Assembly: GCA_017465095.1 (NCBI GenBank)
Contig: JAFTWX010000055.1
Location: 1 to 64,000 of the forward strand
Source: Lachnospiraceae bacterium
GTDB taxonomy: Bacteria > Bacillota > Clostridia > Lachnospirales > Lachnospiraceae
Direction: 5' to 3'
Length of the DNA stretch: 64,000 bases
The notes below the pieces were generated by a model that did not search any database, was not told the DNA's origin, and saw only the letters and a list, made by a program, of their open reading frames with translations. A program made the position numbers and the translations under genes. Below are positions 917-13,062 of this stretch, piece by piece (position 1 is the stretch's first letter; the number at the start of each line of letters is the position of its first letter).

Positions 917-1043
917 ATGGGGGGCTATAAAATCCTATTTTCTGTAAATAAAGCATTGAAAGAACACACATTTCTCTCATATTTTGTTGTTAAAGTATAT
1001 AAAATTGGGGTTTTTGTACCTAAAACACAAAAGGAGAAATTGG

Positions 1044-1733
1044 ATGAGACAGGGGAAATACACTATTCTAGTGGTGGAAGATGATAAAAAACTGACGCAG
1101 GCTTTGCGGGATTATTTCTCGGCGGACGACTATATTGTTTGCTGTGCTGCGGATGGGGATGAAGCGATAGATATTTTTTTCTCTAACAATCATGAGATTG
1201 ATTTGATTTTGCTGGATATTATGTTGCCGAAAAGAAGCGGAATTGAAGTTTTGAGAGAAATCCGACAGTATTCGGATGTCCCGATTATCATGACGACTTC
1301 GAAGGAGTCGGAGGAAGATCAGTTGGAAGCTTTGAATGGTGGTGCCGATAATTATATTACAAAGCCCTTTCGGCTGTCGGTGTTAAAGGCGCATGTTGAG
1401 ATTTTGTTAAACCGTAAAGTGAATAAAGAGCGTTTCATGAAGACAGGTAAGTTGAAGGTGGATTTGCTGTCACAGAGAGTCTTTTTGAATGAAACGGAAG
1501 TGTCTGTCACACCAAAGGAGTTTGCGCTTTTGGTATATTTGATGAGGAATACGAAGGTGGTTCTGTCCAGGGAAGCAATTCTGGATGCTGTCTGGGGATT
1601 TGACTATGAAGGGGACATGCGGACGGTGGATACTCTTGTAAAGCAGCTTAGGAAAAAAATAGCACCGGACGGAAACTATATTCATTCGGTGTATGGTGTC
1701 GGATACTATTTTGAGGAGAAAATAGATGAATAA
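1044..1733 (+). CDS. OmpR-family response regulator
   Basis: The 229-residue protein has an N-terminal receiver domain (about 6-120) with the acidic pair Glu12/Asp13-Asp14, phospho-acceptor Asp58 in LILLDIMLP and the conserved Lys in ITKPF. A C-terminal winged-helix DNA-binding domain (about 130-225) ends with the family-typical RTVDTLVKQLRKKI and GVGYYFE. The start at 1044 is preferred over an in-frame codon at 984 because it has an AGGAGA Shine-Dalgarno at 1031-1037 and gives the normal family length. Its stop overlaps the histidine kinase gene by 8 bp, so the two are translationally coupled partners. Target genes cannot be read from the sequence. Confidence 0.93.
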   Translation: MRQGKYTILVVEDDKKLTQALRDYFSADDYIVCCAADGDEAIDIFFSNNHEIDLILLDIMLPKRSGIEVLREIRQYSDVPIIMTTSKESEEDQLEALNGGADNYITKPFRLSVLKAHVEILLNRKVNKERFMKTGKLKVDLLSQRVFLNETEVSVTPKEFALLVYLMRNTKVVLSREAILDAVWGFDYEGDMRTVDTLVKQLRKKIAPDGNYIHSVYGVGYYFEEKIDE

Positions 1734-3156
1734 AACAGGAAAACAGATTGTGCGCGTCTCTACAATTTTTTTAGCATTTCTTTTGGGATTGATTTTTCTA
1801 ATCTACTCATGGTGTGCTTATCCGTTCATTACGCGGGCAAGGGTGCAGGAAGTCGAGGAAGTCTATTGCATTTTCCAGGAAGAAGATTTGGAAGATTTGT
1901 TGCAGGAAATTGAGGATGAAGAATTCGAGTTTGAGCAGAAAAATGTGCACTTTATTTTATGTGATGATGAGTTCCGACTTGTGTTTTCATCAAATGCAAG
2001 AAAAGGCGATAAAGCGGTCAATGTAAAAATAAAAAGCAGAAAAGATAAATATGCGGAAAATGCAAAGGCAGAGGTGGTAAAAAATAAAGCCGGCGACATT
2101 GCAGTTGTTCGCGGAATGCTGAAAGACCAGGAAGAGTTGTATTATATATATGTGTACAGCAATTTAAAGAATGCAAAGACAAATGTGATATATTCTCAGT
2201 ATGTTATGGGGATTTCTTTTGTTTTAGGGTTGGTTCTTTTTTGGTTGTTTATGACAGTGGTTGTAAAGAAGATGATGGCGCCGGTTTCGAAACTGCAAAA
2301 GGTTACCGAAGAGCTGGGTGAAGGAAAATATGATGTTCGTATTTTGGCGAAAATGCCGGACAATGAAATCGGAGAAATTGCAGAAGAAATAAATGGTTTG
2401 GCAGAGGTTTTGCATTATAAAGATACGGTGATCAACAACTATAAATATTTGTTAAAAAATCAAAATATGGATTGGGCAGAAATTGATGTGATGCAAAAGA
2501 GAATGGTTAGCAATGTGACGCATCATTTGAAAACGCCGTTGGCGATTATTTCCAGTCAGATTGAATTGGAACTGGAAGAAAAGAACGAGGAAAAAAAGAA
2601 ATATTATTACAACTCCATTATGGAAGAAATAGAAAAGATGAGTTCGCAAATCAGCGAGTTGTTGCGTAAGTCGAAAGAGGAGCAACAGTCACCGGTTAAA
2701 GTGAAAATGCGTCGCATGAATGTATCTGAATGGTTGAATGAGCTGGTTTTCAAATATGAAAGCTGGTTTTCGGTGAAAGGAATCCGTTTGGTGGCGGAGA
2801 TTGAGCAGGATGTATATGCAAATATTGATCCGTTGCAGATGGAGCAGGCTGTGAACAATTATATGATGAATGCATGCAGCCATACGAAGAAAGGAAGAAT
2901 GGTTACTCTGCGTCTTTGTAAAGAAACAGATGAGTTATTACTGGAAGTTTACAATGAGGGTGGATGTGTTCCGGAGTCAGACATGGAGAAAATATGGCAC
3001 GATTATTATCGGCGCAGTACGGAAGAAGGCAGTGATGAAGCCAATATCGGACTTGGACTGTACATTGTGAAAGATATTATGAGACAGCATGGCGGAAAAT
3101 GTGGTGTGCGAAATGAGGATAAGGGAGTTGTATTTTGGATTCGTCTTATTTTATAA
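1726..3156 (+). CDS. Membrane sensor histidine kinase
   Basis: This 476-residue kinase is the partner of the response regulator just upstream. It has a first transmembrane helix (about 10-32), an extracytoplasmic sensor loop rich in Glu and Lys, a second helix (about 155-178) and a HAMP linker. A dimerisation/phospho-acceptor domain follows with His266 in VTHHLKTPLAII, then an ATPase domain with the N box (NNYMMNACSH) and a glycine-rich GLGLYIVKDIM motif. The residue after the phospho-His is His instead of the usual Glu, as in some Firmicute kinases. The sensor loop is not recognisable, so the signal is unknown. A terminator follows directly. Confidence 0.92.
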   Translation: MNKTGKQIVRVSTIFLAFLLGLIFLIYSWCAYPFITRARVQEVEEVYCIFQEEDLEDLLQEIEDEEFEFEQKNVHFILCDDEFRLVFSSNARKGDKAVNVKIKSRKDKYAENAKAEVVKNKAGDIAVVRGMLKDQEELYYIYVYSNLKNAKTNVIYSQYVMGISFVLGLVLFWLFMTVVVKKMMAPVSKLQKVTEELGEGKYDVRILAKMPDNEIGEIAEEINGLAEVLHYKDTVINNYKYLLKNQNMDWAEIDVMQKRMVSNVTHHLKTPLAIISSQIELELEEKNEEKKKYYYNSIMEEIEKMSSQISELLRKSKEEQQSPVKVKMRRMNVSEWLNELVFKYESWFSVKGIRLVAEIEQDVYANIDPLQMEQAVNNYMMNACSHTKKGRMVTLRLCKETDELLLEVYNEGGCVPESDMEKIWHDYYRRSTEEGSDEANIGLGLYIVKDIMRQHGGKCGVRNEDKGVVFWIRLIL

Positions 3157-3167
3157 GGTTATAAGTG

Positions 3168-3198
3168 AGAACCCCGTGAAGGGGTTCTTTTATTTTAC
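3168..3198 (+). terminator. Rho-independent terminator of the two-component operon
   Basis: AGAACCCC (3168-3175) pairs with GGGGTTCT (3181-3188) around GTGAA, followed by TTTTATTTT. It isolates the kinase gene from the ABC transporter operon that starts 67 bp further on. Confidence 0.88.
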
Positions 3199-3264: not shown

Positions 3265-4245
3265 GTGAATACATACAAAAAGAAAATAGGAGTGATTTTA
3301 TTGGGAATCGCTTTGGCAGGGATTTTTGCTTTGGGCGGATGTGCATCTGCGCAGGAAGGTGCGGAAGGAAAAGAGGATTTGACGGTGGCATATCAGTATG
3401 GCCTTGCGTATGCGCCATTGACAATTATGCAGGAACTTCATCTGATAGAAAAAAACTATGCAGGAGATTTGGAGATAGAGTGGCTAAATCTGAATTCCGG
3501 TTCAGCCATCAATGAAGGAATGATGACCGGTGATATCGATGTAGCCAATATGGGAGTGGGACCGTTTGTTACGGGAGTGACAGCGGGAATTCCGTATAAA
3601 ATGTATGCCACAATATCGGCGCAGCCACACAAATTGATGACGAACAATCCGGAGATACATTCTCTTGCAGATATTACGGGAGAGGAAAAAATAGCGTTGG
3701 TAAACATCGGAAGTATTCAGCATATTTTGTTGGCGATGCAGGCGAAAGAAGAGCTGGGGGATGCCCGTGCATTGGATGAAAATATTGTTGCAATGTCACA
3801 TCCGGACGGGATGGTGGCGCTTCTTTCGGGGAGTGTGGATTGCCAGCTCACAACGGCACCTTATATATATGAAGAAATGGAAACAGAAGGTGTTCATGAA
3901 GTGGCAGGACTTGAAACTGTCTGGCCGGAAGGATCAGCATTTATCGTCGGAATTGTTTCTGACAAACTCTGTGCGGAAAATCCACAGCTTTATGAAGCTG
4001 TAGTGGCAGCGACGCAGGAGGCAATTGCATATATCAATGAAAATCCGCAGCAGGCAGCAGAAATCGTTGCCGAAAAGCAAGACTACTCTGCGGAAGAAGT
4101 ACTGGAATGGATATCAGCGCCGGGATGTGAATATGATACGCATCTCGATGGTGTAATGGATATGGCAAAGTTTATGGCACAGGAAGGTTTTATCGAAAAT
4201 GCGCCGGAAAGCTTTGAGTCAATCAGTACGCCGGCGGCAAGATAA
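3265..4245 (+). CDS. ABC transporter substrate-binding lipoprotein (NitT/TauT type)
   Basis: The protein carries a lipoprotein signal: positive N-terminus, hydrophobic core and a lipobox LGGC before the acylated Cys. The mature part resembles the SsuA/ThiY/NMT1-like periplasmic-binding fold, with AYAPLTIMQE near the start and GDIDVANMGVGP in the first lobe. It should deliver a small organic anion or precursor to the permease encoded 25 bp downstream; the ligand is not readable. A GTG start at 3265 gives 326 residues and a normal signal peptide. An in-frame ATG at 3232 adds 11 non-hydrophobic residues, lacks a Shine-Dalgarno and sits in a probable promoter region. First gene of the seven-gene operon. 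Confidence 0.85.
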   Translation: MNTYKKKIGVILLGIALAGIFALGGCASAQEGAEGKEDLTVAYQYGLAYAPLTIMQELHLIEKNYAGDLEIEWLNLNSGSAINEGMMTGDIDVANMGVGPFVTGVTAGIPYKMYATISAQPHKLMTNNPEIHSLADITGEEKIALVNIGSIQHILLAMQAKEELGDARALDENIVAMSHPDGMVALLSGSVDCQLTTAPYIYEEMETEGVHEVAGLETVWPEGSAFIVGIVSDKLCAENPQLYEAVVAATQEAIAYINENPQQAAEIVAEKQDYSAEEVLEWISAPGCEYDTHLDGVMDMAKFMAQEGFIENAPESFESISTPAAR

Positions 4246-4270
4246 CAGGTTGACAGACAAGGGAAAAGAT

Positions 4271-5041
4271 ATGAAAAAGCGTTTTGTGCATCAAATTGTT
4301 TTTATTATAGCCGTTTTGGCAATGTGGCAGGTAATCTACGAACTTCAGCTGTTTCCGGCATTAATGTTTCCTTCCCTGGGCAGCATTTTTTCGGCTCTGA
4401 CAGAGGGATTTGCGGACGGAGGATTGGGAGAGATGGTGTTGTATTCCATGTCACTCCTTCTTCGAGGATTCGTAATCGGAATTGTGGCAGCGTTTGTATT
4501 GTCCGGGATTTCCATGATGAGCCGCACCTTTTGTGATATTTACAATATGATAGTTTCCATGTGTGATTTGATTCCGGGTGTGGCGATGATTCCGCTGGCT
4601 ATCTTGTGGATTGGGATAGGGGAAGAAACTATAATTTTGATTGTGGTACATTCGATTATTTGGCCGATGTCCCGCAGTATTATGGACGGATTTTCTTCTG
4701 TTCCGAAGATTTATAAAGAGGTGGGAGCAAATATCGGATTAAACCGTTATTCCATGTTGCTGGGAATCTATGTACCGGCAGCATTTGCGCATATTTTGTC
4801 CGGAATTAAGGTCGGCTGGGCGAGAGCATGGAGAGGACTCATCAGTGCGGAGATGATTTTCGGAACAACCGGTTCCGGGGCGGGAATCGGCTGGTTTATT
4901 TTCATGAAACGGACCAATGTGGATATTGCGGGAGTTTTTGCAGCGCTCCTTGTGATTGTAGCCATCGGTGCGGTGGTTGAGTATGTGGTATTCCGCTATA
5001 TTGAAAAAAATACGATTCGAAAATGGGGGATTGGTAAATGA
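4271..5041 (+). CDS. ABC transporter permease (NitT/TauT type)
   Basis: This 256-residue integral membrane protein of the BPD_transp_1 family has about six hydrophobic segments. The coupling-loop region has the EAA-type pattern YKEVGANIGLNRYSML, followed by GWARAWRGLISAEMIFG, which is typical of SsuC/TauC-like permeases. The start at 4271 has an AAGGGA site 8 bp upstream; an earlier in-frame ATG at 4199 would overlap the preceding gene by 47 bp without ribosome-binding support. Its stop overlaps the ATPase start (ATGA). It forms the membrane pore of the importer with the lipoprotein and the ATPase on either side. Confidence 0.9.
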   Translation: MKKRFVHQIVFIIAVLAMWQVIYELQLFPALMFPSLGSIFSALTEGFADGGLGEMVLYSMSLLLRGFVIGIVAAFVLSGISMMSRTFCDIYNMIVSMCDLIPGVAMIPLAILWIGIGEETIILIVVHSIIWPMSRSIMDGFSSVPKIYKEVGANIGLNRYSMLLGIYVPAAFAHILSGIKVGWARAWRGLISAEMIFGTTGSGAGIGWFIFMKRTNVDIAGVFAALLVIVAIGAVVEYVVFRYIEKNTIRKWGIGK

Positions 5042-5811
5042 CACCGATATTGAAGGTTGAAAATCTTGTGAAGCGTTTCCATGATGAGATGTCGTATGGG
5101 CAGGGTGAGATTTTAAAAGATTTGAATTTTGAAATGCAACGCGGTGAGTTTGTGTGTATTTTGGGACCTTCCGGTTGCGGAAAGTCTACATTTTTGCGCT
5201 GTATCGGCGGTTTTGAAGGTTATGAAGGGACGCTTGCTGTAAACGGAGAATGTGTTACCGGGCCGGGAACAGACCGGATTATGGTTTTTCAGGAGTTCAG
5301 TCAGCTTCTTCCGTGGAAGACGGTTGAGAAGAATGTGCAATATCCATTAAAACTGCAGGGGTGTAAAGATAAGAAAAAATTGCAGGAAATTTCAGATTTG
5401 TATCTGGAGAAGGTGGATCTCTTGGAGTATCGTAAATTTTATCCACATCAGTTGAGCGGAGGAATGAAACAGAGAACAGCAATTGCGAGGGCATTGGCAT
5501 TGAAGCCGGAAATTATATTGATGGATGAGCCATTTGCGAGTCTTGACGCTATGAGTCGGAATCATTTACAGGCGGAGCTTTATCAAATACATCAAAAGGA
5601 AAAGGTGTCTGTTATTTTTATTACGCACAATATTCAGGAAGCAATTTGTCTCGGAACCCGGATTTTGGTCATGTCCAAAAACGGGGAAATTAAAGTGGAT
5701 ATGATGAATCCGCTTCCAAAGCCGGTGACACCGTCATCGGAGAAATACGGAGAAATGTGGGACTTGCTTCACGATGCACTTTATGAGGCAGGCGGAGAAG
5801 AAAAAGAATGA
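5038..5811 (+). CDS. ABC transporter ATP-binding protein (NitT/TauT type)
   Basis: A 257-residue nucleotide-binding subunit with Walker A GPSGCGKST, Q-loop FQEFSQLLPW, signature LSGGMKQR, Walker B IILMDEP, D-loop SLDA and switch His in FITHN. The QLLPW context is typical of the SsuB/TauB/NitT group. It overlaps the permease gene by 4 bp and the following SGNH-type gene by 4 bp. The transporter and the surface-modification genes are therefore one translationally coupled unit, which is unusual for either gene set. Confidence 0.93.
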   Translation: MTPILKVENLVKRFHDEMSYGQGEILKDLNFEMQRGEFVCILGPSGCGKSTFLRCIGGFEGYEGTLAVNGECVTGPGTDRIMVFQEFSQLLPWKTVEKNVQYPLKLQGCKDKKKLQEISDLYLEKVDLLEYRKFYPHQLSGGMKQRTAIARALALKPEIILMDEPFASLDAMSRNHLQAELYQIHQKEKVSVIFITHNIQEAICLGTRILVMSKNGEIKVDMMNPLPKPVTPSSEKYGEMWDLLHDALYEAGGEEKE

Positions 5812-6836
5812 TAAAAAAAGAATGGAAAAATTTTGTGGGCAGTGTTGTCTTTTTGGGGATTGCTGCCTTTCTCTTTGTATCAATTTCATATGTGATGCGC
5901 CCGGTAGATTTGGGAAATCGTGATGCGATGGCCGGATTTTATGCGGAAGAAGACAATACGTTGGATGTGGTCGCGTTTGGAAGCAGCGCAATTTATCGTT
6001 TCCTGAACAATCCCATTTTATGGGAGGAGTACGGGATAACATCTTATAATCTGGGAACCGGTTCTCAGCAACCGGATGTGGCGGTTATGTTGGCGAATGA
6101 GACGTTAAAGACGCAGAAGCCGGATTTGATTCTTGTAGAGACCAGATCGTTTATCAAGGAAGAGAAGGAAGGAAAATCGGATATTAATTTCCGCCGGGTT
6201 TCGGATTATATGAATTATTCGTTTGATAGGATTAAATATATTACGGCATATACGGATGATTGGTCCTTGCGCATTTCCATGATTTTTGACATATGCTTTT
6301 ATCATGAGTTGTGGAAGGAATTTAAAATAACGGATTTGTACAGGGCGGACAACAAAAAAGATACAGAGCTGAAAGGCTGGGAATGTATCTATGAATGTGA
6401 GCCGCAGGAGGTACCGGAGGATTACAGCGGAGTAATGCCCGAGGCAATCGATCCGGAAGAGGAACAGGAACTTTATGAGTTGATGGATTTTTGTGAGGCG
6501 GAAGAAATTGCACTGCTTTTTGTAGCGACGCCATGGAAAATGACAGAAAACCGTGTGGCACAGAATAAGTATTTGGAGCAGATTATCACAAAGAGGGGAT
6601 ATCATTTTTTGAACTGTAATGATTATATTGATGAAATCGGAATTGACTACAGTAAAGATTTCTATGATTCCATGCATACCAATGTATGGGGGGCGGAGAA
6701 GGTTACGCATTTTATCGGGAAGTTTATGAAGAAACATTTTGATATGGATTTGTCCCACGATGAGGAGACGGTCAAAGAGTGGAACCGGGTAGCCGAGAGT
6801 TATCATGAGAAAAAACAAAACGGAGAAAAGGAATAG
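5808..6836 (+). CDS. DltD-like membrane-anchored SGNH-type protein
   Basis: The 342-residue protein has one N-terminal membrane helix (about 9-28) and an outer SGNH-hydrolase-like domain. The nucleophile block is VAFGSSAIYR (Ser59 or Ser60), followed by ITSYNLGTGSQ and PDLILVETR. A C-terminal Asp287-x-x-His290 (DSMH) completes a Ser-Asp-His triad. This is the layout of DltD and of AlgJ/AlgX-type proteins that act with MBOAT acyltransferases on the outer surface. Overall length and the middle part differ from classical DltD, so DltD-like describes context and fold, not proven D-alanyl transfer. It is coupled to the ABC ATPase by ATGA and to the MBOAT by a 24-bp gap. Confidence 0.72.
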   Translation: MIKKEWKNFVGSVVFLGIAAFLFVSISYVMRPVDLGNRDAMAGFYAEEDNTLDVVAFGSSAIYRFLNNPILWEEYGITSYNLGTGSQQPDVAVMLANETLKTQKPDLILVETRSFIKEEKEGKSDINFRRVSDYMNYSFDRIKYITAYTDDWSLRISMIFDICFYHELWKEFKITDLYRADNKKDTELKGWECIYECEPQEVPEDYSGVMPEAIDPEEEQELYELMDFCEAEEIALLFVATPWKMTENRVAQNKYLEQIITKRGYHFLNCNDYIDEIGIDYSKDFYDSMHTNVWGAEKVTHFIGKFMKKHFDMDLSHDEETVKEWNRVAESYHEKKQNGEKE

Positions 6837-6860
6837 AGAGTAGGAGAGGAACGTAGGATT

Positions 6861-8453
6861 ATGTCGTATACATCGTTTGTATATTTTGTGCTTGTTGCAC
6901 TGACTGCCTTTTTATATTATGCTGCGCCCATAAAATACCGATGGACAATTTTGCTACTTGCAAATACGGTGTTTTATCTTTCGGCGGGGCCGGTGGAATT
7001 TATCGTTTTGGCGGTTTCGGTAATTGCATCTTATTTTGCAGCAGATTTTATCGGTGGGTATAACCGGAAGATAAAAGAATTAAAAAGTATGGAGGAGATG
7101 GGAAAAGAGGAGAAAAAGCAGAGAAAGAGTGTGTATGCCAAAAAGAAACGGAATTTGTTGTGGCTCGGTCTCGGTGTGCCGATCGGAATTCTCCTTGTTG
7201 TGAAATACACAAATTTTGTATTGTCGAGCGTAAATACCGTGCTGGCATGGGAAGGGAGTGCGAAAAACTTTTCCATGGTATCCCTGGTGGTTCCTCTGGG
7301 AATTTCGTTTTTTACCTTTCAGATTATTGCTTATGTGATGGATGTTTACAAAGGGAAAATAGAGCCGGTACAGGGCATTGCCAAATATTATCTTTATGTG
7401 TCTTTTTTTCCAAGCGTTGTGCAGGGACCGATACCGCGATATGCGGAGTTGGGACATCAGCTTGAGAGAGGCAATGCTTTCCGGTTTGAGAATGTGCGTG
7501 ATGGCTGTATTTTAATTCTTTGGGGTCTGGCGAAAAAGCTGATTATGGCACAGCGTTTGGCGACCTATGTGGACTCTGTCTATGATCCGTACATGTATTA
7601 TGAGGGTGTGATTTTAATTGTGGCCACCATCGCTTTTTCGGTACAAATCTACGCTGACTTTTCCGGGTGTATGGATATTGCTGTGGGAACGGCAAAAATT
7701 TTCGGAATTGAGCTTTCGCCGAATTTCTTGAGACCTTATTTTTCAAAAACAATGCCGGAGTTTTGGCGCAGATGGCACGCGACACTCGGAAGCTGGTTTC
7801 GGGATTATGTTTTTTTCCCGTTCTCTATTTCGAAAACATCTTTAAAAATAAACAAGTGGTCCCGCACACATCTGGGAGACGGCGCGGGTAAAATAGTTTC
7901 GGTCTCGTTGCCGATCCTTGTTGTTTGGATTCTTACGGGTATTTGGCACGGCCCGGAATGGAAATATGTGGCTTGGGGATTGTTCCACGGTATCCTGATT
8001 GTATTAAGTACTATTTTTTCGCCCAAAATGCAGAAGCTGGGTGAACGGCTGCATATTAAAACGGATTGTTTTAGCTTCCGGCTTTTTCAAATGCTGCGGA
8101 CCTTTGCGCTCTGCTGTGTCGGAAGAGTGTTCTTCCGGGCACAGAGTATTGGAGCTGCTTTCGAAATATTTAAATTGACATTTCAGACGACGGGGTTTTA
8201 TTGGTTGAATGGCAATCATTTTTTTGAGTATGGAATTGACCGGCAAGACTGGATGGTTGTACTTGTCTTTTTCGTTATCTGGTTTACGGTGAGTGTGCTG
8301 GAAGAAAAATACGGAGATGTTCTGCAACTGTTACATAAACAAAATTTAGTATTCCGCTGGGCAATTCTTTATGTATTACTGTTCTCGGTAATCATTTTCG
8401 GACAATACGGTCCGGGATATGAAGTGGCAGATTTTATTTATGAACAATTTTAA
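6861..8453 (+). CDS. MBOAT family O-acyltransferase (DltB/AlgI-like)
   Basis: This 530-residue polytopic protein has about ten hydrophobic segments and the MBOAT hallmarks: SFFPSVVQGPIPRY, YADFSGCMDIAVG, FWRRWHATLGSWFRDYVFFP and the catalytic His in LTGIWHGPEWKYVAWGLFHG. In DltB and AlgI this His moves an acyl group from a carrier across the membrane to a surface acceptor. The ligase and acyl carrier genes that follow would supply the carrier-bound acyl group, and the SGNH protein before it would act outside. An inserted Lys/Glu-rich cytoplasmic loop at about 70-95 is conspicuous. The Shine-Dalgarno is the GGAGAGGAAC stretch upstream. Confidence 0.9.
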   Translation: MSYTSFVYFVLVALTAFLYYAAPIKYRWTILLLANTVFYLSAGPVEFIVLAVSVIASYFAADFIGGYNRKIKELKSMEEMGKEEKKQRKSVYAKKKRNLLWLGLGVPIGILLVVKYTNFVLSSVNTVLAWEGSAKNFSMVSLVVPLGISFFTFQIIAYVMDVYKGKIEPVQGIAKYYLYVSFFPSVVQGPIPRYAELGHQLERGNAFRFENVRDGCILILWGLAKKLIMAQRLATYVDSVYDPYMYYEGVILIVATIAFSVQIYADFSGCMDIAVGTAKIFGIELSPNFLRPYFSKTMPEFWRRWHATLGSWFRDYVFFPFSISKTSLKINKWSRTHLGDGAGKIVSVSLPILVVWILTGIWHGPEWKYVAWGLFHGILIVLSTIFSPKMQKLGERLHIKTDCFSFRLFQMLRTFALCCVGRVFFRAQSIGAAFEIFKLTFQTTGFYWLNGNHFFEYGIDRQDWMVVLVFFVIWFTVSVLEEKYGDVLQLLHKQNLVFRWAILYVLLFSVIIFGQYGPGYEVADFIYEQF

Positions 8454-8479
8454 TATAAAAATTTTGAGAGGTGTAGAGG

Positions 8480-9946
8480 ATGCATTCCATTGTGGAAGCG
8501 ATTGCGACATATGCGGCGAAGCAGCCGGAAAAATTATGTGTTGCGGACGGTAAAAATACATTTACATATTTGCAATACTGGGAGCATATCGCAGGATTTG
8601 CCCGTCAACTCGCGGAATGCGGGGTAAAACCGGGCGATTGTGTTGTTGTCAGGAACTCCCAAAATGCTGCTTTTTTGACGGCAGGACTGGCATTGCAACT
8701 TTTGGGAGCGGTATTTGTGCCGATAGAAAAGAATGTGGCAGACCGGCGAATCCGGGAAATTTGCGAGGAAGTAGAGGCTGTTTGGTATATTGCGACAAAG
8801 GAGCCGGATTTTGCGATTTCTTACTTGGATATGGGGAACGTGTTGACCCATGCGATGCCGGTTTCGATGGAGCATGTTGTTTTTCCGAAGGGGACAGATC
8901 TTGCAGAGATACTTTTTACAACCGGAACGACAGGAAAGTCGAAAGGGATTGAAATCCTTCATAAAAATGTCATTGCGGTAGCGGAGAATGTTATTGACGG
9001 CGTGGAGATGAAACCGGACAATGTAGAACTGATTCCGGTGCCTTTGAGCCATTCTCACGGACTTCGCAGGTATTATGCCAATATGCTCAATGGCAGCAGC
9101 GTTGTGTTGGCCGATGGAGTTATCTTTGTGAAGCAAATCTTTGAGCGTATGAGAACTTACGGGGTGACATCCATGGATCTTGTTCCGGCAGCGCTCGCGG
9201 CGCTTTTGAAATTGGGCGGTGATGAGCTTGGTCAGTTTGCCGGGCAAATAGACTATATTCAGCTTGGTTCTGCACCGATTCCTGAGGCGGATCGTGAAAG
9301 ATTGCGATTGCTTTTTCCTGACAGCAGACTTTATAACTTTTACGGTACAACGGAGTCCGGATGTTCCTGTATTTTTGATTTTAACAAATATGGAGACAAG
9401 AAAAATTGTATCGGAAGGCCGACCTGCCATGCAGTGTTTGCTTTTTTGGATGAGGATGGCAAGGAGGTCTCGGCAACAAAAAATCAGCCCGGTTTTTTGG
9501 CCTGCAAGGGTGAGATGAATATGGCGGGGTATTATCGCTCGCCGTCGCAGAATGAGGCAGTATTTTCCGGGGATTTTATCGTTACACAGGATATGGCGTA
9601 TATAGGTGATGATGGAATGATTTACCTTTTGGGACGCAAGGGCGATGTAATTCAAAGCGGAGGGAATAAAATATCACCGCAGGAAGTGGAAGAGGCTGCG
9701 CTGGAGATGGAAGGTATTGCCGATTGTGCCTGTATCCCGGTGGAAAGTCCGTTGCTTGGGCAGGAACCGAAATTGTTCTATGTTGCGGCGAAGGGGATAT
9801 CGTTGCAAGAGGAGGAACTTTATGAGTTTTTAAAAAGAAAACTGGAAACATATAAGGTTCCGAAAAAAATAGAAAGAATAGATCAAATTCCAAGGACCTA
9901 TAACGGGAAAATACAAAGAAATCTTTTGATGGAAAGAGAGAGGTGA
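8480..9946 (+). CDS. AMP-forming acyl ligase charging the operon's carrier protein (DltA-like role)
   Basis: A 488-residue class I adenylate-forming enzyme. Motifs in order: phosphate loop TTGTTGKSKGI (A3), LGSAPIPEADR, YNFYGTTESG (A5), TQDMAYIGDDGMIYLLGRKGDVI (A7/A8 hinge) and the catalytic Lys in TYNGKIQRN (A10). It should activate a carboxylic or amino acid as acyl-AMP and load the acyl carrier encoded 5 bp downstream. Overall sequence looks nearer to acyl-CoA/fatty-acid ligases than to textbook DltA, so the substrate may not be D-alanine. Start chosen at the ATG 6-8 bp after GAGAGG. Confidence 0.82.
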   Translation: MHSIVEAIATYAAKQPEKLCVADGKNTFTYLQYWEHIAGFARQLAECGVKPGDCVVVRNSQNAAFLTAGLALQLLGAVFVPIEKNVADRRIREICEEVEAVWYIATKEPDFAISYLDMGNVLTHAMPVSMEHVVFPKGTDLAEILFTTGTTGKSKGIEILHKNVIAVAENVIDGVEMKPDNVELIPVPLSHSHGLRRYYANMLNGSSVVLADGVIFVKQIFERMRTYGVTSMDLVPAALAALLKLGGDELGQFAGQIDYIQLGSAPIPEADRERLRLLFPDSRLYNFYGTTESGCSCIFDFNKYGDKKNCIGRPTCHAVFAFLDEDGKEVSATKNQPGFLACKGEMNMAGYYRSPSQNEAVFSGDFIVTQDMAYIGDDGMIYLLGRKGDVIQSGGNKISPQEVEEAALEMEGIADCACIPVESPLLGQEPKLFYVAAKGISLQEEELYEFLKRKLETYKVPKKIERIDQIPRTYNGKIQRNLLMERER

Positions 9947-9951
9947 AAGAA

Positions 9952-10179
9952 ATGGATGGATTGATGCAAGTATTGAAACTGGCAGCGCCGAAGGTAGACT
10001 GGAGCGTAGAGGGGAACCTGGTGGAAGAGGGGATTTTGGATTCTGTAGATATTATCAGTGTTGTTTCGGAATTGACGAGTGCGTATGACATTGAGATTCC
10101 GGCAGAAGAGATGGAAATTGAGAATTTTTGCAGCGCACAGGCGATTTATGATCTTGTACAGCGATTGTTGGATGAATGA
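9952..10179 (+). CDS. Acyl carrier protein (DltC-like)
   Basis: A 75-residue acidic helical protein with the phosphopantetheine attachment Ser in EEGILDSVDIISVV. The DSVDI form, without the DSL of fatty-acid ACPs, recalls DltC and other dedicated carriers. It lies 5 bp after the acyl ligase and is the last gene before a strong terminator, so it is the likely acyl donor carrier for the MBOAT. An in-frame GTG at 9943 overlaps the ligase stop. The ATG at 9952 is preferred because GAGAGAGG ends 8 bp before it. Confidence 0.85.
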   Translation: MDGLMQVLKLAAPKVDWSVEGNLVEEGILDSVDIISVVSELTSAYDIEIPAEEMEIENFCSAQAIYDLVQRLLDE

Positions 10180-10210: not shown

Positions 10211-10250
10211 AAAAAGCCACAATTCCGTTAGCGGAATTGCGGCTTTTTTG
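10211..10250. terminator. Bidirectional terminator between convergent genes
   Basis: GCCaCAATTCCG and CGGAATTGcGGC pair around TTAG, flanked by an A run on the left and a T run on the right. The hairpin can therefore end both the acyl-carrier operon (plus) and the large secreted-protein gene (minus). Confidence 0.9.
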
Positions 10251-10252
10251 TT

Positions 10253-12988
10253 TTATCTGTTTGGCATAGCTTTTAATTTGTTTTCGTCAAATCCGTTTAC
10301 GATCTTCTTCCATGAGGAAGCGCCGATGGTTGACAGATAAGGATTTGTATAGGTGGTGGATTTCGGGGTATCCATGTATTTATATACTTTTTCTGATTTT
10401 TTACCCATGAAATCAAATTGGTATCCCGGACCGCCGTGGTCACCGCTGGAGAAGATGACTGCATCAATCATGTCGTTAAACTGTGCTTTGTAGTACAGGT
10501 ACGCAACGGCTGCAGCCTGAACGCTCTCGCCGGTCTGTCTTCCTGCGTTGTAAGGAGAACCGGTACCGCCGGAGTAGGAGAATCCCTGCTCGGAAAGAAT
10601 AATGCGGACGTTCTTTCCAAAGTTTTTCTTCACGTATTTGGTGAGGATTTCAAGGTTCTTCGGCGATACAAATGCAGCATCGTTGTTATTTGGGGCCAGA
10701 TTTCCGTCGTTCCAGAAATCGGCGTTGGTCAAAACGGCGGAATATGCATGGTAAGCAAGATTCCATTTGATATTTTTGTTTTGTTTTCTGATTTCTTTGT
10801 GAAATGCTTTGGTAAAGTTTTTCACTCCCCAATCGTTTTCTCGGTTGCTCCATGTGTGGTCACAGCAGATGTAAACACGACCGTTTTTGTTGTTGGATTT
10901 TACGGCGTAATAGAGCATGCGGAAAGCGGAAGCATAATGCTTGATAAATTTATCCTTGGAGATGTTGCCTGCGTAATACCATTTTGCGTTCATGTTGGCG
11001 TAGGTGTTAACCTCGTTACCGAGAATCCAGTTGTCTACATGGTAATCCTGCTTGCTGGCGTATTCTGCCATAAAATGGAATGCGGCTTCAATGTTTTCTC
11101 GGGCAGTTTTGTTGTCTGTGTTAAATGCATAGTAGTGCGCGCCCTGTTTACGTCCGCTCTTTAAAATAAGATTTTTGCATTTTGCGTCGTACTGGAGCAT
11201 AACCTGAACGGTAACGGTTCCGCCGTCTTTGTTGACTTCACTCACGTGTCCGAAATTCGGGTTATTAAAATAGTACGTTTTGCCGTTGTATTTGTAAGCA
11301 ACCTGATGATTTCCTTTTGTTGCAATAATGGAATTCAGGTTAAAGTTGTAGAAATAGTTTTTATCACCCATGGAGGTATCATAGCATCCCTGGCGGCCTT
11401 TCTTGGAAGCCGGAGTCGGGAAGGCGGCCGTATAGTGGGCAGCAGCCTCCGGATTGCTGATGAAAGCAGCGGAAGAAATCAATTTATACTTTTTGCCCTT
11501 TTTAACGGCGATGGCAAATTTGCCCTGGATGTGGTTGTTGCCGTCGTTATCCGTAACAGGGAGTTTAAATTCTACTGTTTTGGTCTTTTCTGCTTTTGCA
11601 ATTTTTTTCAAAACTTTGCCGTTGTAAGGATCTACTTTTACCAGGTAGTAGAAGTTGTCGGAACTCTTTAAGCGTTTGGAAACTTTTGCTTTTACATACA
11701 GTGTGTCAGTTCCGGTGATGGAAACTTTTTTGAGTTTTCCCGAGTTTTTCTTCGCTTCGTATTCGCGCACCCCTTTTTTTACTTTGCAGGAAAGTACCTT
11801 AGAGTAACTTCCGTAGCATTTTTCTCCGGTGGAGTCGATGACATAAGCACGCACCTTGTAATAGTATTTCTTTCCTTTTGGAAGGTTGGTGAATGTGTAG
11901 GAGGTTTTGGCTCCTGCATCGATGGAGTTTTTGTTTTTGGTAAATTTCTTGTTGGTTGCGTATGTAATTTCGTAGCCCTGGGCATTGGTCGCTTTTGTGT
12001 ATTTAAGTTTGATTTTTCCTGTGCCTGTGTTTTTGGCAGAGGAAAGTGTGACCGCACCCGGGGTCACGGATGTCCATTTGGCGTAAACGGTATAGGAAGG
12101 AACGTTACCGTTTGCATCTGAGTTAAAGAAGGTTCCGGCCGGAATGGCAGTGACGGCTTTTGTAAAAGCCGGATCTGTGTACCAGCCGTTGAAAATGAAT
12201 CCCTTGCGCTGCGGAGCAGGAAGCTGGATGGCTCCGCTCTTGACGGTAAATGTATACGGAATTTCTGCGCCGTTTTTGGCAACCAGAGCTCCGCCGTTTA
12301 GCTGATAGTTGATGGAGTATTCGTACGGCTCGGTGTCGTAAACAGCGTAGAGGTTGGTGTCTTCGTAGAAGTAAACTTCGTCATATAAGGTGGATACGAG
12401 GTTACCTTTGTTGTTGGCGCGGGAGTGTTTCCAGCGTACAATCTGATATCCGTTACGAACCTGTGAGAGCAGGCGGGAACTGCTCATGTAATCGCACAGA
12501 CAGACACCGTAACTGTACCCGTCATACTGCATCGGAACAGTGAACAGCAGCGTGGTTCCGTCCGTATCATAAAAGTATGCAGTGAAGTCCGTCGCCTCTG
12601 CTTCCGACGAGACGCTATCGATATCCGGTGTTTTTGTGTCGTCGCCTTCTTCCGTTGAAGAAGAGTCATCTTCGCTGTCGGATGTATCCTGTGAGGTATC
12701 CTCTGAGCCGGCGGAAGAGTCGTCGCCGCTTTCGGTTCCGGAATCATCCGGCGTACCCGGTGTCACATCACCGGCCGGTGTATCGCCCGATTCTGTACCA
12801 TCACCGTCTGTATTGTCAGTTTCCGTGTTGTCGGAATCCGGCACAGAAGGTGTATCTGTCGTGTTGTCGGAAATCGCGGTCTGCTGCGCTTCTGTGGCAG
12901 AGAGGGTGATCGGATACTGTCCGACGGTACCTACAGTCAATAATAAACACAGAAAGAGAGAAAGAAACCGCATTCTGATTTTTTTCAT
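10253..12988 (-). CDS. Large secreted multidomain protein with DUF5722 glycosidase-like domain
   Basis: The 911-residue protein starts with a signal peptide (about 1-33) and a low-complexity linker of Asp, Ser, Thr, Gly and Glu (about 36-130). A Listeria/Bacteroides-type beta repeat ends in YTVYAKWTS, then comes a fibronectin type III domain with GYEITYATNKKF and KKYYYKVRAY. A C-terminal region of about 370 residues matches what I know of DUF5722. It has a TIM-barrel glycosidase look: WILGNEVN (Glu near 656) could be the acid/base and ILSEQGFSYSG (Glu near 799) the nucleophile. No LPXTG motif or C-terminal anchor is visible. The start at 12988 follows a GAGGG site; an in-frame ATG 54 bp upstream would hide the signal peptide. 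Polysaccharide binding or cleavage outside the cell is inferred. Confidence 0.82.
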   Translation of the reverse strand: MKKIRMRFLSLFLCLLLTVGTVGQYPITLSATEAQQTAISDNTTDTPSVPDSDNTETDNTDGDGTESGDTPAGDVTPGTPDDSGTESGDDSSAGSEDTSQDTSDSEDDSSSTEEGDDTKTPDIDSVSSEAEATDFTAYFYDTDGTTLLFTVPMQYDGYSYGVCLCDYMSSSRLLSQVRNGYQIVRWKHSRANNKGNLVSTLYDEVYFYEDTNLYAVYDTEPYEYSINYQLNGGALVAKNGAEIPYTFTVKSGAIQLPAPQRKGFIFNGWYTDPAFTKAVTAIPAGTFFNSDANGNVPSYTVYAKWTSVTPGAVTLSSAKNTGTGKIKLKYTKATNAQGYEITYATNKKFTKNKNSIDAGAKTSYTFTNLPKGKKYYYKVRAYVIDSTGEKCYGSYSKVLSCKVKKGVREYEAKKNSGKLKKVSITGTDTLYVKAKVSKRLKSSDNFYYLVKVDPYNGKVLKKIAKAEKTKTVEFKLPVTDNDGNNHIQGKFAIAVKKGKKYKLISSAAFISNPEAAAHYTAAFPTPASKKGRQGCYDTSMGDKNYFYNFNLNSIIATKGNHQVAYKYNGKTYYFNNPNFGHVSEVNKDGGTVTVQVMLQYDAKCKNLILKSGRKQGAHYYAFNTDNKTARENIEAAFHFMAEYASKQDYHVDNWILGNEVNTYANMNAKWYYAGNISKDKFIKHYASAFRMLYYAVKSNNKNGRVYICCDHTWSNRENDWGVKNFTKAFHKEIRKQNKNIKWNLAYHAYSAVLTNADFWNDGNLAPNNNDAAFVSPKNLEILTKYVKKNFGKNVRIILSEQGFSYSGGTGSPYNAGRQTGESVQAAAVAYLYYKAQFNDMIDAVIFSSGDHGGPGYQFDFMGKKSEKVYKYMDTPKSTTYTNPYLSTIGASSWKKIVNGFDENKLKAMPNR

Positions 12989-13033
12989 AATAACCCTCGC
13001 TTTCGTTTGTTCTGTTTTAGTACGATAAAGTGT

Positions 13034-13062
13034 CTTATTCATTATAGCGCAAATGTTATAAT
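13034..13062 (+). promoter_or_regulatory. Putative extended -10 promoter of glgP-malQ
   Basis: TGtTATAAT at 13054-13062 is an extended -10 element. The -35 (CTTATT at about 13034) is weak, as is common with extended -10 promoters. Transcription from about 13069 would give a leader of about 115 nt containing the hairpin at 13110. It overlaps, back to back, a TATAAT on the minus strand at 13046-13041 that may serve the secreted-protein gene. Confidence 0.4.
13041..13046 (-). promoter_or_regulatory. Putative -10 element of the secreted-protein gene
   Basis: On the minus strand a perfect TATAAT lies about 53 bp upstream of the secreted-protein start codon (12988). No good -35 is seen at the expected distance. 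Confidence 0.35.

Follow-up and report, generated by a model that had tools for sequence, protein, structure and literature searches.

A Lachnospiraceae operon that may couple a dedicated acid importer to Dlt-like surface acylation

Pathways that pair an MBOAT acyltransferase with an SGNH protein use an acyl-tyrosine mechanism that runs through a C-terminal Tyr hexapeptide; in Dlt this hexapeptide is located on DltX, and a carrier is absent from such pathways other than Dlt (PMC12148441). The Dlt system (DltA, DltB, DltC, DltD and DltX), responsible for the D-alanylation of teichoic acids, consists of an AMP-forming ligase, a small carrier, an MBOAT and an SGNH partner, encoded in one operon and working from an acyl-carrier donor. 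All of these features recur in an operon of seven genes located on a 64,000-nucleotide stretch of a Lachnospiraceae bacterium genome (contig JAFTWX010000055.1, positions 1 to 64,000; hereafter the window). With PatA/PatB, the peptidoglycan O-acetylation system (PMC12148441), the operon shares an MBOAT with a C-terminal FIYxxF, a separate SGNH protein and the same predicted acyl-Tyr shuttle. Its first three genes, however, encode an ABC importer. We favour, with moderate confidence, a reading in which the seven gene products form a surface-acylation machine that supplies itself by importing an anionic acid. Its genes are as follows:

3265–4245, + strand: SBP, a NitT/TauT-type solute-binding lipoprotein (lipobox LGGC; PF13379, 53 bits).
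4271–5041, + strand: PERM, the permease of the same ABC importer (PF00528, 57 bits).
5038–5811, + strand: ATP, the ATPase of the same ABC importer (PF00005, 101 bits).
5808–6836, + strand: SGNH-type acyltransferase/esterase (N-terminal membrane helix; model match to SGNH hydrolases; Ser60 codon at 5985–5987).
6861–8453, + strand: MBOAT acyltransferase, DltB-like (PF03062, 48 bits; catalytic His in GIWHG; FIYEQF at 8433–8450).
8480–9946, + strand: LIG, an acyl-adenylate ligase (PF00501, 190 bits; PF13193, 56 bits; Arg196 codon at 9065–9067).
9943–10179, + strand: ACP, an acyl carrier protein (PF00550; phosphopantetheine Ser in DSVD, codon at 10042–10044; ATG 9952 is an equally possible start).

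A check of the open reading frames (ORFs) of the window confirmed the seven + strand ORFs at the positions given in an earlier note on this DNA (3265–10179). The gaps between them are, in order, 25, −4, −4, 24 and 26 bp, followed by one that depends on the ACP start: the 5 bp of the earlier note holds if ACP starts at ATG 9952, and becomes −4 if it starts at GTG 9943. The SBP start is backed by the ATG of its L047 homologue. Pfam cut-offs are exceeded by the NMT1_2/NMT1 lipoprotein, BPD_transp_1, ABC_tran, MBOAT, AMP-binding and PP-binding matches.

The pairing of importer and ligase extends well beyond this genome. The LIG clade comprises 23 loci, 22 of them complete, and an importer adjoins the ligase in 18 of the complete ones (13 ABC and 5 DASS). 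The seven-gene order is identical in a second genome of the same genus (L047/L063); Hominisplanchenecus faecis (L048/L066) and two rabbit-gut metagenome-assembled genomes (L064 and L065) have SBP-PERM-ATP-MBOAT-SGNH-LIG-ACP, with MBOAT and SGNH exchanged, and in genera further removed the full set of seven recurs in a changed order (L069, L073, L104 and L108). Among 397 genomes of the family, with the ligase taken at E ≤ 1e-100 and the SBP subfamily at E ≤ 1e-35, each was found in 17 genomes and both in 12, against 0.7 expected (hypergeometric 1.3e-15, ignoring genome relatedness). Conserved linkage and co-occurrence thus identify the importer–ligase pair as a functional module. Since the same genes are conserved across genomes, chance neighbourhood is excluded, and a link confined to this one genome, which would have undone the earlier note's proposal, is not what the comparison of gene neighbourhoods in many genera reveals.

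The identity of the importer is not constant. At L100, L102, L103, L105 and L109, the ABC genes are gone and a DASS/SLC13 symporter is in place (PF03600 and PF00939 far over cut-off in all four tested). In a maximum-likelihood tree of the ligases, DASS- and ABC-linked ligases are interspersed: L100 is nested within the ABC clade of the window (supports 96 and 81), L105 is sister to ABC loci (supports 100 and 89), and L102/L103 and L109 are located elsewhere. The importer has therefore been swapped several times while the ligase was kept. All four DASS copies with at least 59% identity among 200 genomes adjoin the ligase. Together with synteny, this exchange led us to reject the importer as a chance neighbour. 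That unrelated importers took each other's place independently while the ligase stayed is best understood if the importer delivers the substrate of the ligase, and these sequence comparisons make such a supply role probable. The suggestion in the earlier note that the importer brings in an acyl precursor is strengthened both by the recurring link and by the finding that a different family of transporters can stand in for the ABC genes next to this ligase. The swaps also point to the substrate, as the acyl group would be whatever both transporters carry.

An explanation that separates the two halves of the operon makes the importer a carrier of some nutrient (a sulfur source or a cofactor precursor, for example), co-regulated with an independent acylation cassette. 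The same ABC subfamily does occur alone with a LysR regulator (L132 and L134–L136) and in five genomes where no ligase passes the chosen threshold (G055, G317, G379, G365 and G438). However, co-regulation does not readily account for the substitution of a DASS at that very position, and only 3 of the 17 ligase genomes show neither transporter (G072, G032 and G347, the last two from a separate ligase branch). Moreover, the importer stays with the ligase even where no MBOAT is a neighbour (L101, L106 and L107), indicating that the importer–ligase module is not tied to MBOAT. We consider this explanation improbable. The gene neighbourhoods of the stand-alone SBP copies gave no substrate name. By inspection, the stand-alone importer and LysR gene of L132 (9755–19760) are followed by larE-, larB-, larC-like and nickel-transport-like genes, and in three genomes (L138–L140) more remote relatives of this importer are found near LysR-like genes, YeeE/YedE- and TusA-type sulfur-like genes and glycosyltransferases.

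By its sequence, LIG is no ordinary DltA, because TIGR01734 (DltA) is absent among its best 25 NCBIfam families and because, in profile and multiple alignments, Ser192 aligns with the Asp by which amino-acid-activating enzymes bind the amino group. These comparisons agree with the earlier note's view that the modified group is not D-alanine, and we hold with high confidence that another group is transferred. Four residues after Ser192, in the presumed acyl pocket, is Arg196, which is invariant in 21 ligase homologues; we take its position to be that of GrsA Trp239 and At4CL2 Asn256. At this place, the three acyl-CoA-type ligases in the comparison show Ser, Met or Thr-like residues. In a fold search with the LIG model, the first three enzyme types were oxalate, o-succinylbenzoate and malonate ligases, all of which act on doubly charged acids. 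The genome, a draft of 2.5 Mb in 107 contigs (89% complete) that contains seven MBOATs, gave no support for a canonical dltA at another site: of its five matches to AMP ligases, the three others that were examined are not DltA-like, a comparison that did not include the second match on C27.

Relatives of the ligase are found in other settings. One operon (L059, 4744–10459) encodes a DltA-like ligase without the Asp, a carrier, a 391-residue protein whose N terminus, by inspection, looks like a PLP fold-III decarboxylase/racemase, an MBOAT and an SGNH protein, and is possibly a variant with another donor. In L112 and L113, glycan-biosynthesis-like clusters contain ligase relatives together with a carrier and a pair of short-chain dehydrogenases, with no importer and no MBOAT.

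The transfer machinery combines features of both known systems. The MBOAT is of the DltB type and has the catalytic His; it scores 167 bits against TIGR04091, below the equivalog cut-off of 375. A C-terminal F[IVFM]Yxx[FY] is present in nearly all of its homologues, the version in the window being FIYEQF. The gaps between the seven genes contain no ORF and hence no separate DltX microprotein gene; the hexapeptide is instead fused to the MBOAT. For the SGNH protein, Pfam gives no significant match, but its AlphaFold model (pLDDT 79.7) matches SGNH/GDSL hydrolases, including PatB (7tlv) and DltD (3bma). Ser60 and His290 are invariant in ten SGNH homologues, and an Asp is present at −3 of the His, where several homologues have Asn; the model is consistent with an SGNH partner bearing a catalytic Ser, His and Asp. 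The carrier is of the DltC type, with the phosphopantetheine Ser in a DSVD motif; it exceeds the PF00550 cut-off (23.6 bits versus 20.8), and DltC models match below theirs (DltC-like NF003464, 32 bits). Carrier and fused hexapeptide together give a predicted hybrid of Dlt and the other MBOAT–SGNH pathways, Dlt-like in its working and yet, by its ligase and DltX features, apparently not a Dlt system. An ordinary D-alanylation operon behind an unrelated importer would share the DltB-like MBOAT, the DltC-like carrier and the SGNH partner, but the LIG profile, the missing amino-binding Asp and the fusion of the hexapeptide to the MBOAT in place of a DltX gene make it very improbable.

We propose the following sequence of events, in which the direction and substrate of transport, the substrate of LIG, the flow of acyl groups and the acceptor are inferred. 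SBP-PERM-ATP would take up an exogenous anionic carboxylic acid, which LIG would adenylate and load onto the phosphopantetheine arm of ACP, with Arg196 helping to hold a second polar or negative group that is probably present on the acid. The MBOAT would receive acyl-ACP at the inner face of the membrane and, at the outer face, acylate the tyrosine within its own FIYEQF end, from where the SGNH Ser would take the acyl group and esterify an envelope polymer. The last transfer steps are modelled on the mechanism of PatAB and Dlt. By contrast, genes, gene order, conservation, transporter exchange, catalytic motifs and pocket substitutions can be read directly from the DNA.

Related cassettes use other partners. 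A second MBOAT/SGNH/ACP/AMP-ligase cassette in the same genome (L043, G000:C94, 7772–12149) has a different ligase and no importer, and adjoins an IspD-like cytidylyltransferase and an ABC-export-like gene. MBOAT/SGNH cassettes in L060 (9266–14572) and L072 (490–10644) contain FkbH-like genes (predicted glyceryl-ACP formation), in L072 also a thiolase and a short-chain reductase; they are predicted to be other acyl-supply modules for the same transferases. Some ligase loci are located in glycan regions, with an IspD-like cytidylyltransferase gene in L151 and NeuB, UDP-GlcNAc-epimerase-like and cytidylyltransferase genes in L107. Three remote ligases (L071, 4374–7501; L152, 6740–8758; L153, 9100–11125) are paired with a hexapeptide-repeat acyltransferase, not with MBOAT/SGNH, suggesting transfer inside the cytoplasm; the ligase charging module may thus serve more than one type of transferase. 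Of these, the L152 ligase has a LysR-like gene and a carrier of the DctM type as neighbours, and that of L071 another DASS.

The importer is a complete NitT/TauT set, with an NMT1-type SBP, a BPD permease and an ATPase together, each over its Pfam cut-off. Sulfonate and taurine binders are the nearest relatives of SBP, though it scores below the curated SsuA/TauA models: its best NCBIfam match is TIGR01728 (SsuA_fam, aliphatic sulfonates; 109 bits versus a cut-off of 163.5), and it reaches 36 of 304 bits against TIGR01729. All 17 SBPs of the subfamily match TIGR01728. The best match of the SBP profile in the PDB is the taurine-binding TauA (6ssy, 3.4e-11), and the single sequence gives weak PDB matches. 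The best NCBIfam match of ATP is SaoA, followed by NtrCD/TauB-type ATPases. The family of SBP is broad, and its likeness to sulfonate binders is a hint from sequence, no proof.

A further hint comes from the DASS. The ligase-linked DASS form a clade (support 94) that is sister to DASS located in sulfonate operons (joint support 96). The sister group includes DASS from dihydroxypropanesulfonate (DHPS) operons (L168 and L170), in which aldehyde dehydrogenase and CoA-ligase homologues are found as in hpfXYZ (PMC11489063). The glycyl-radical dehydratase of L168 matches HpfG NF048009 at 1684.6 bits. Other members are found in sulfoquinovose operons (L172 and L174) with transaldolase, DUF4867 and GH31, and in L174 a match to the sulfoquinovose isomerase model (SftI). 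Both clades have PN at the first motif, where several other DASS have SNT. Within the DNA examined, no such sulfonate genes were found near other sampled DASS loci outside the two clades.

Taken together, DASS phylogeny, SBP relatives and ligase pocket point to an acid that bears a second group, polar or negative. That this group is a second negative charge is about an even call. A sulfonate would account most economically for all three hints, none of which is proof, and we put it forward tentatively, as less probable than its alternatives taken together. Our best single guess is a C2–C3 sulfo-carboxylate (sulfoacetate, 3-sulfolactate or 3-sulfopropionate) released from plant sulfoquinovose by other gut bacteria. 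In its full form the proposal is rather doubtful: gut Firmicutes would scavenge these acids from sulfoquinovose degraders and esterify them to a surface polymer, giving an anionic sulfoacyl coat, the charge-inverse of D-alanylation.

The same machine might instead use an ordinary dicarboxylate such as succinate, malonate or tartrate, and succinylate or malonylate the surface. Dicarboxylates are the classical cargo of the DASS and DctM families, the LIG model resembles ligases for oxalate, o-succinylbenzoate and malonate, and Arg196 could hold the second carboxylate. Yet the first SNT motif, kept by several other Lachnospiraceae DASS and by L071, is lost in the ligase-linked DASS, which group with sulfonate-operon DASS; the SBP relatives are sulfonate binders; and succinate and malonate are made intracellularly and need no dedicated importer. 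A dicarboxylate is on these grounds unlikely. A hydroxy acid (glycerate, lactate or similar) is slightly less likely still. It would fit the glyceryl-ACP that the FkbH-like genes of L060 and L072 would make, the larEBC-like set after the L132 importer (lactate-racemase-type cofactor genes, by inspection) and a possible recognition of the dihydroxypropyl anion by DHPS-type DASS; but glycerate and lactate are plentiful in the cell, so that no importer is needed, and the lar association is seen in one locus only.

Several observations weigh against a self-supplied machine for an anionic acid. No importer is found near the ligase in L068, L110, L111 and L151 (in one of these four cases, G451, the ABC importer is located elsewhere in the genome). 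L101, L106 and L107 have ligase and ABC genes with no MBOAT directly adjacent, and in L106 a separate DltA-like/MBOAT cassette is located about 6 kb away. The cargo of NitT/TauT binding proteins also includes nitrate, bicarbonate and precursors of thiamine, and SBP remains below the SsuA_fam cut-off. Sulfonate-operon DASS may export products such as DHPS, a non-carboxylate, and their clade may recognise hydroxylated anions generally. Finally, the Arg196 position is occupied by Lys in three DltA-like proteins in which the Asp is retained, and by Arg in L059, which lacks the Asp. A basic residue there is thus not peculiar to LIG; alone, Arg196 is suggestive of a second charge and no proof of one.

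The operon is well delimited, and the hairpin scan and ORF check bear out the gene order, spacing and strong terminator described in the earlier note. Its flanking features are:

984–3156, + strand: two-component system (response regulator and histidine kinase), the upstream neighbour, syntenic in L047.
3167–3189, + strand: terminator-like hairpin with a 9-bp stem, then a T-rich tail, dividing the two-component genes from the operon.
10220–10239, + strand: terminator-like hairpin with an 8-bp stem, then CGGCTTTTTT, ending the operon.

Weaker hairpin-like sites within coding regions are of a kind that the scan also finds in shuffled sequence. The two-component pair is a possible regulator, outside the acylation machinery; by inspection, regulator/kinase-like pairs are also located near the ligase in L068, L106 and L109. 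Convergent to the operon is a gene for a large secreted repeat-containing protein (10253–13042, − strand), a homologue of which adjoins the operon in L047 too.

In the open-access literature we found no description of an importer-linked MBOAT/Dlt operon, of an MBOAT with a dicarboxylate, of sulfoacyl polysaccharide esters or of a DASS with sulfoquinovose. Envelope charge and acyl type govern antimicrobial-peptide sensitivity, phage and immune recognition. Were the acid a C2–C3 sulfonate, compounds so far mainly seen as catabolites and H2S precursors would have a structural role, and a sulfoacyl coat would represent an anabolic, envelope-building use of diet-derived sulfonates. In Dlt and PatAB, the acyl groups come from the cell's own metabolism, whereas the donor of the system described here seems to be scavenged; the surface of a commensal would therefore depend on diet and neighbouring bacteria.

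Like TauABC, SsuABC and SaoAPX (NitT/TauT importers), the ABC importer has an SBP, one permease and an ATPase, the SBP being nearest to taurine/sulfonate binders; unlike them, it forms a separate subfamily under the curated cut-offs, and its genetic partner is a ligase, not an enzyme of catabolism. The ligase-linked DASS share their PN motif 1 with their sister clade in the DHPS (hpfGDXYZ-like) and sulfoquinovose (sulfo-TAL) loci of gut Firmicutes; those are catabolic operons, whereas the ligase-linked DASS keep SNT as motif 2 and are located with acylation genes. PatA works from acetyl-CoA with no carrier, ligase or importer, all three of which are present here. Compared with Dlt, the operon has a dedicated importer, a ligase pocket that appears not to be for an amino acid and a hexapeptide located on the MBOAT without DltX, and the predicted group may add negative, not positive, charge.

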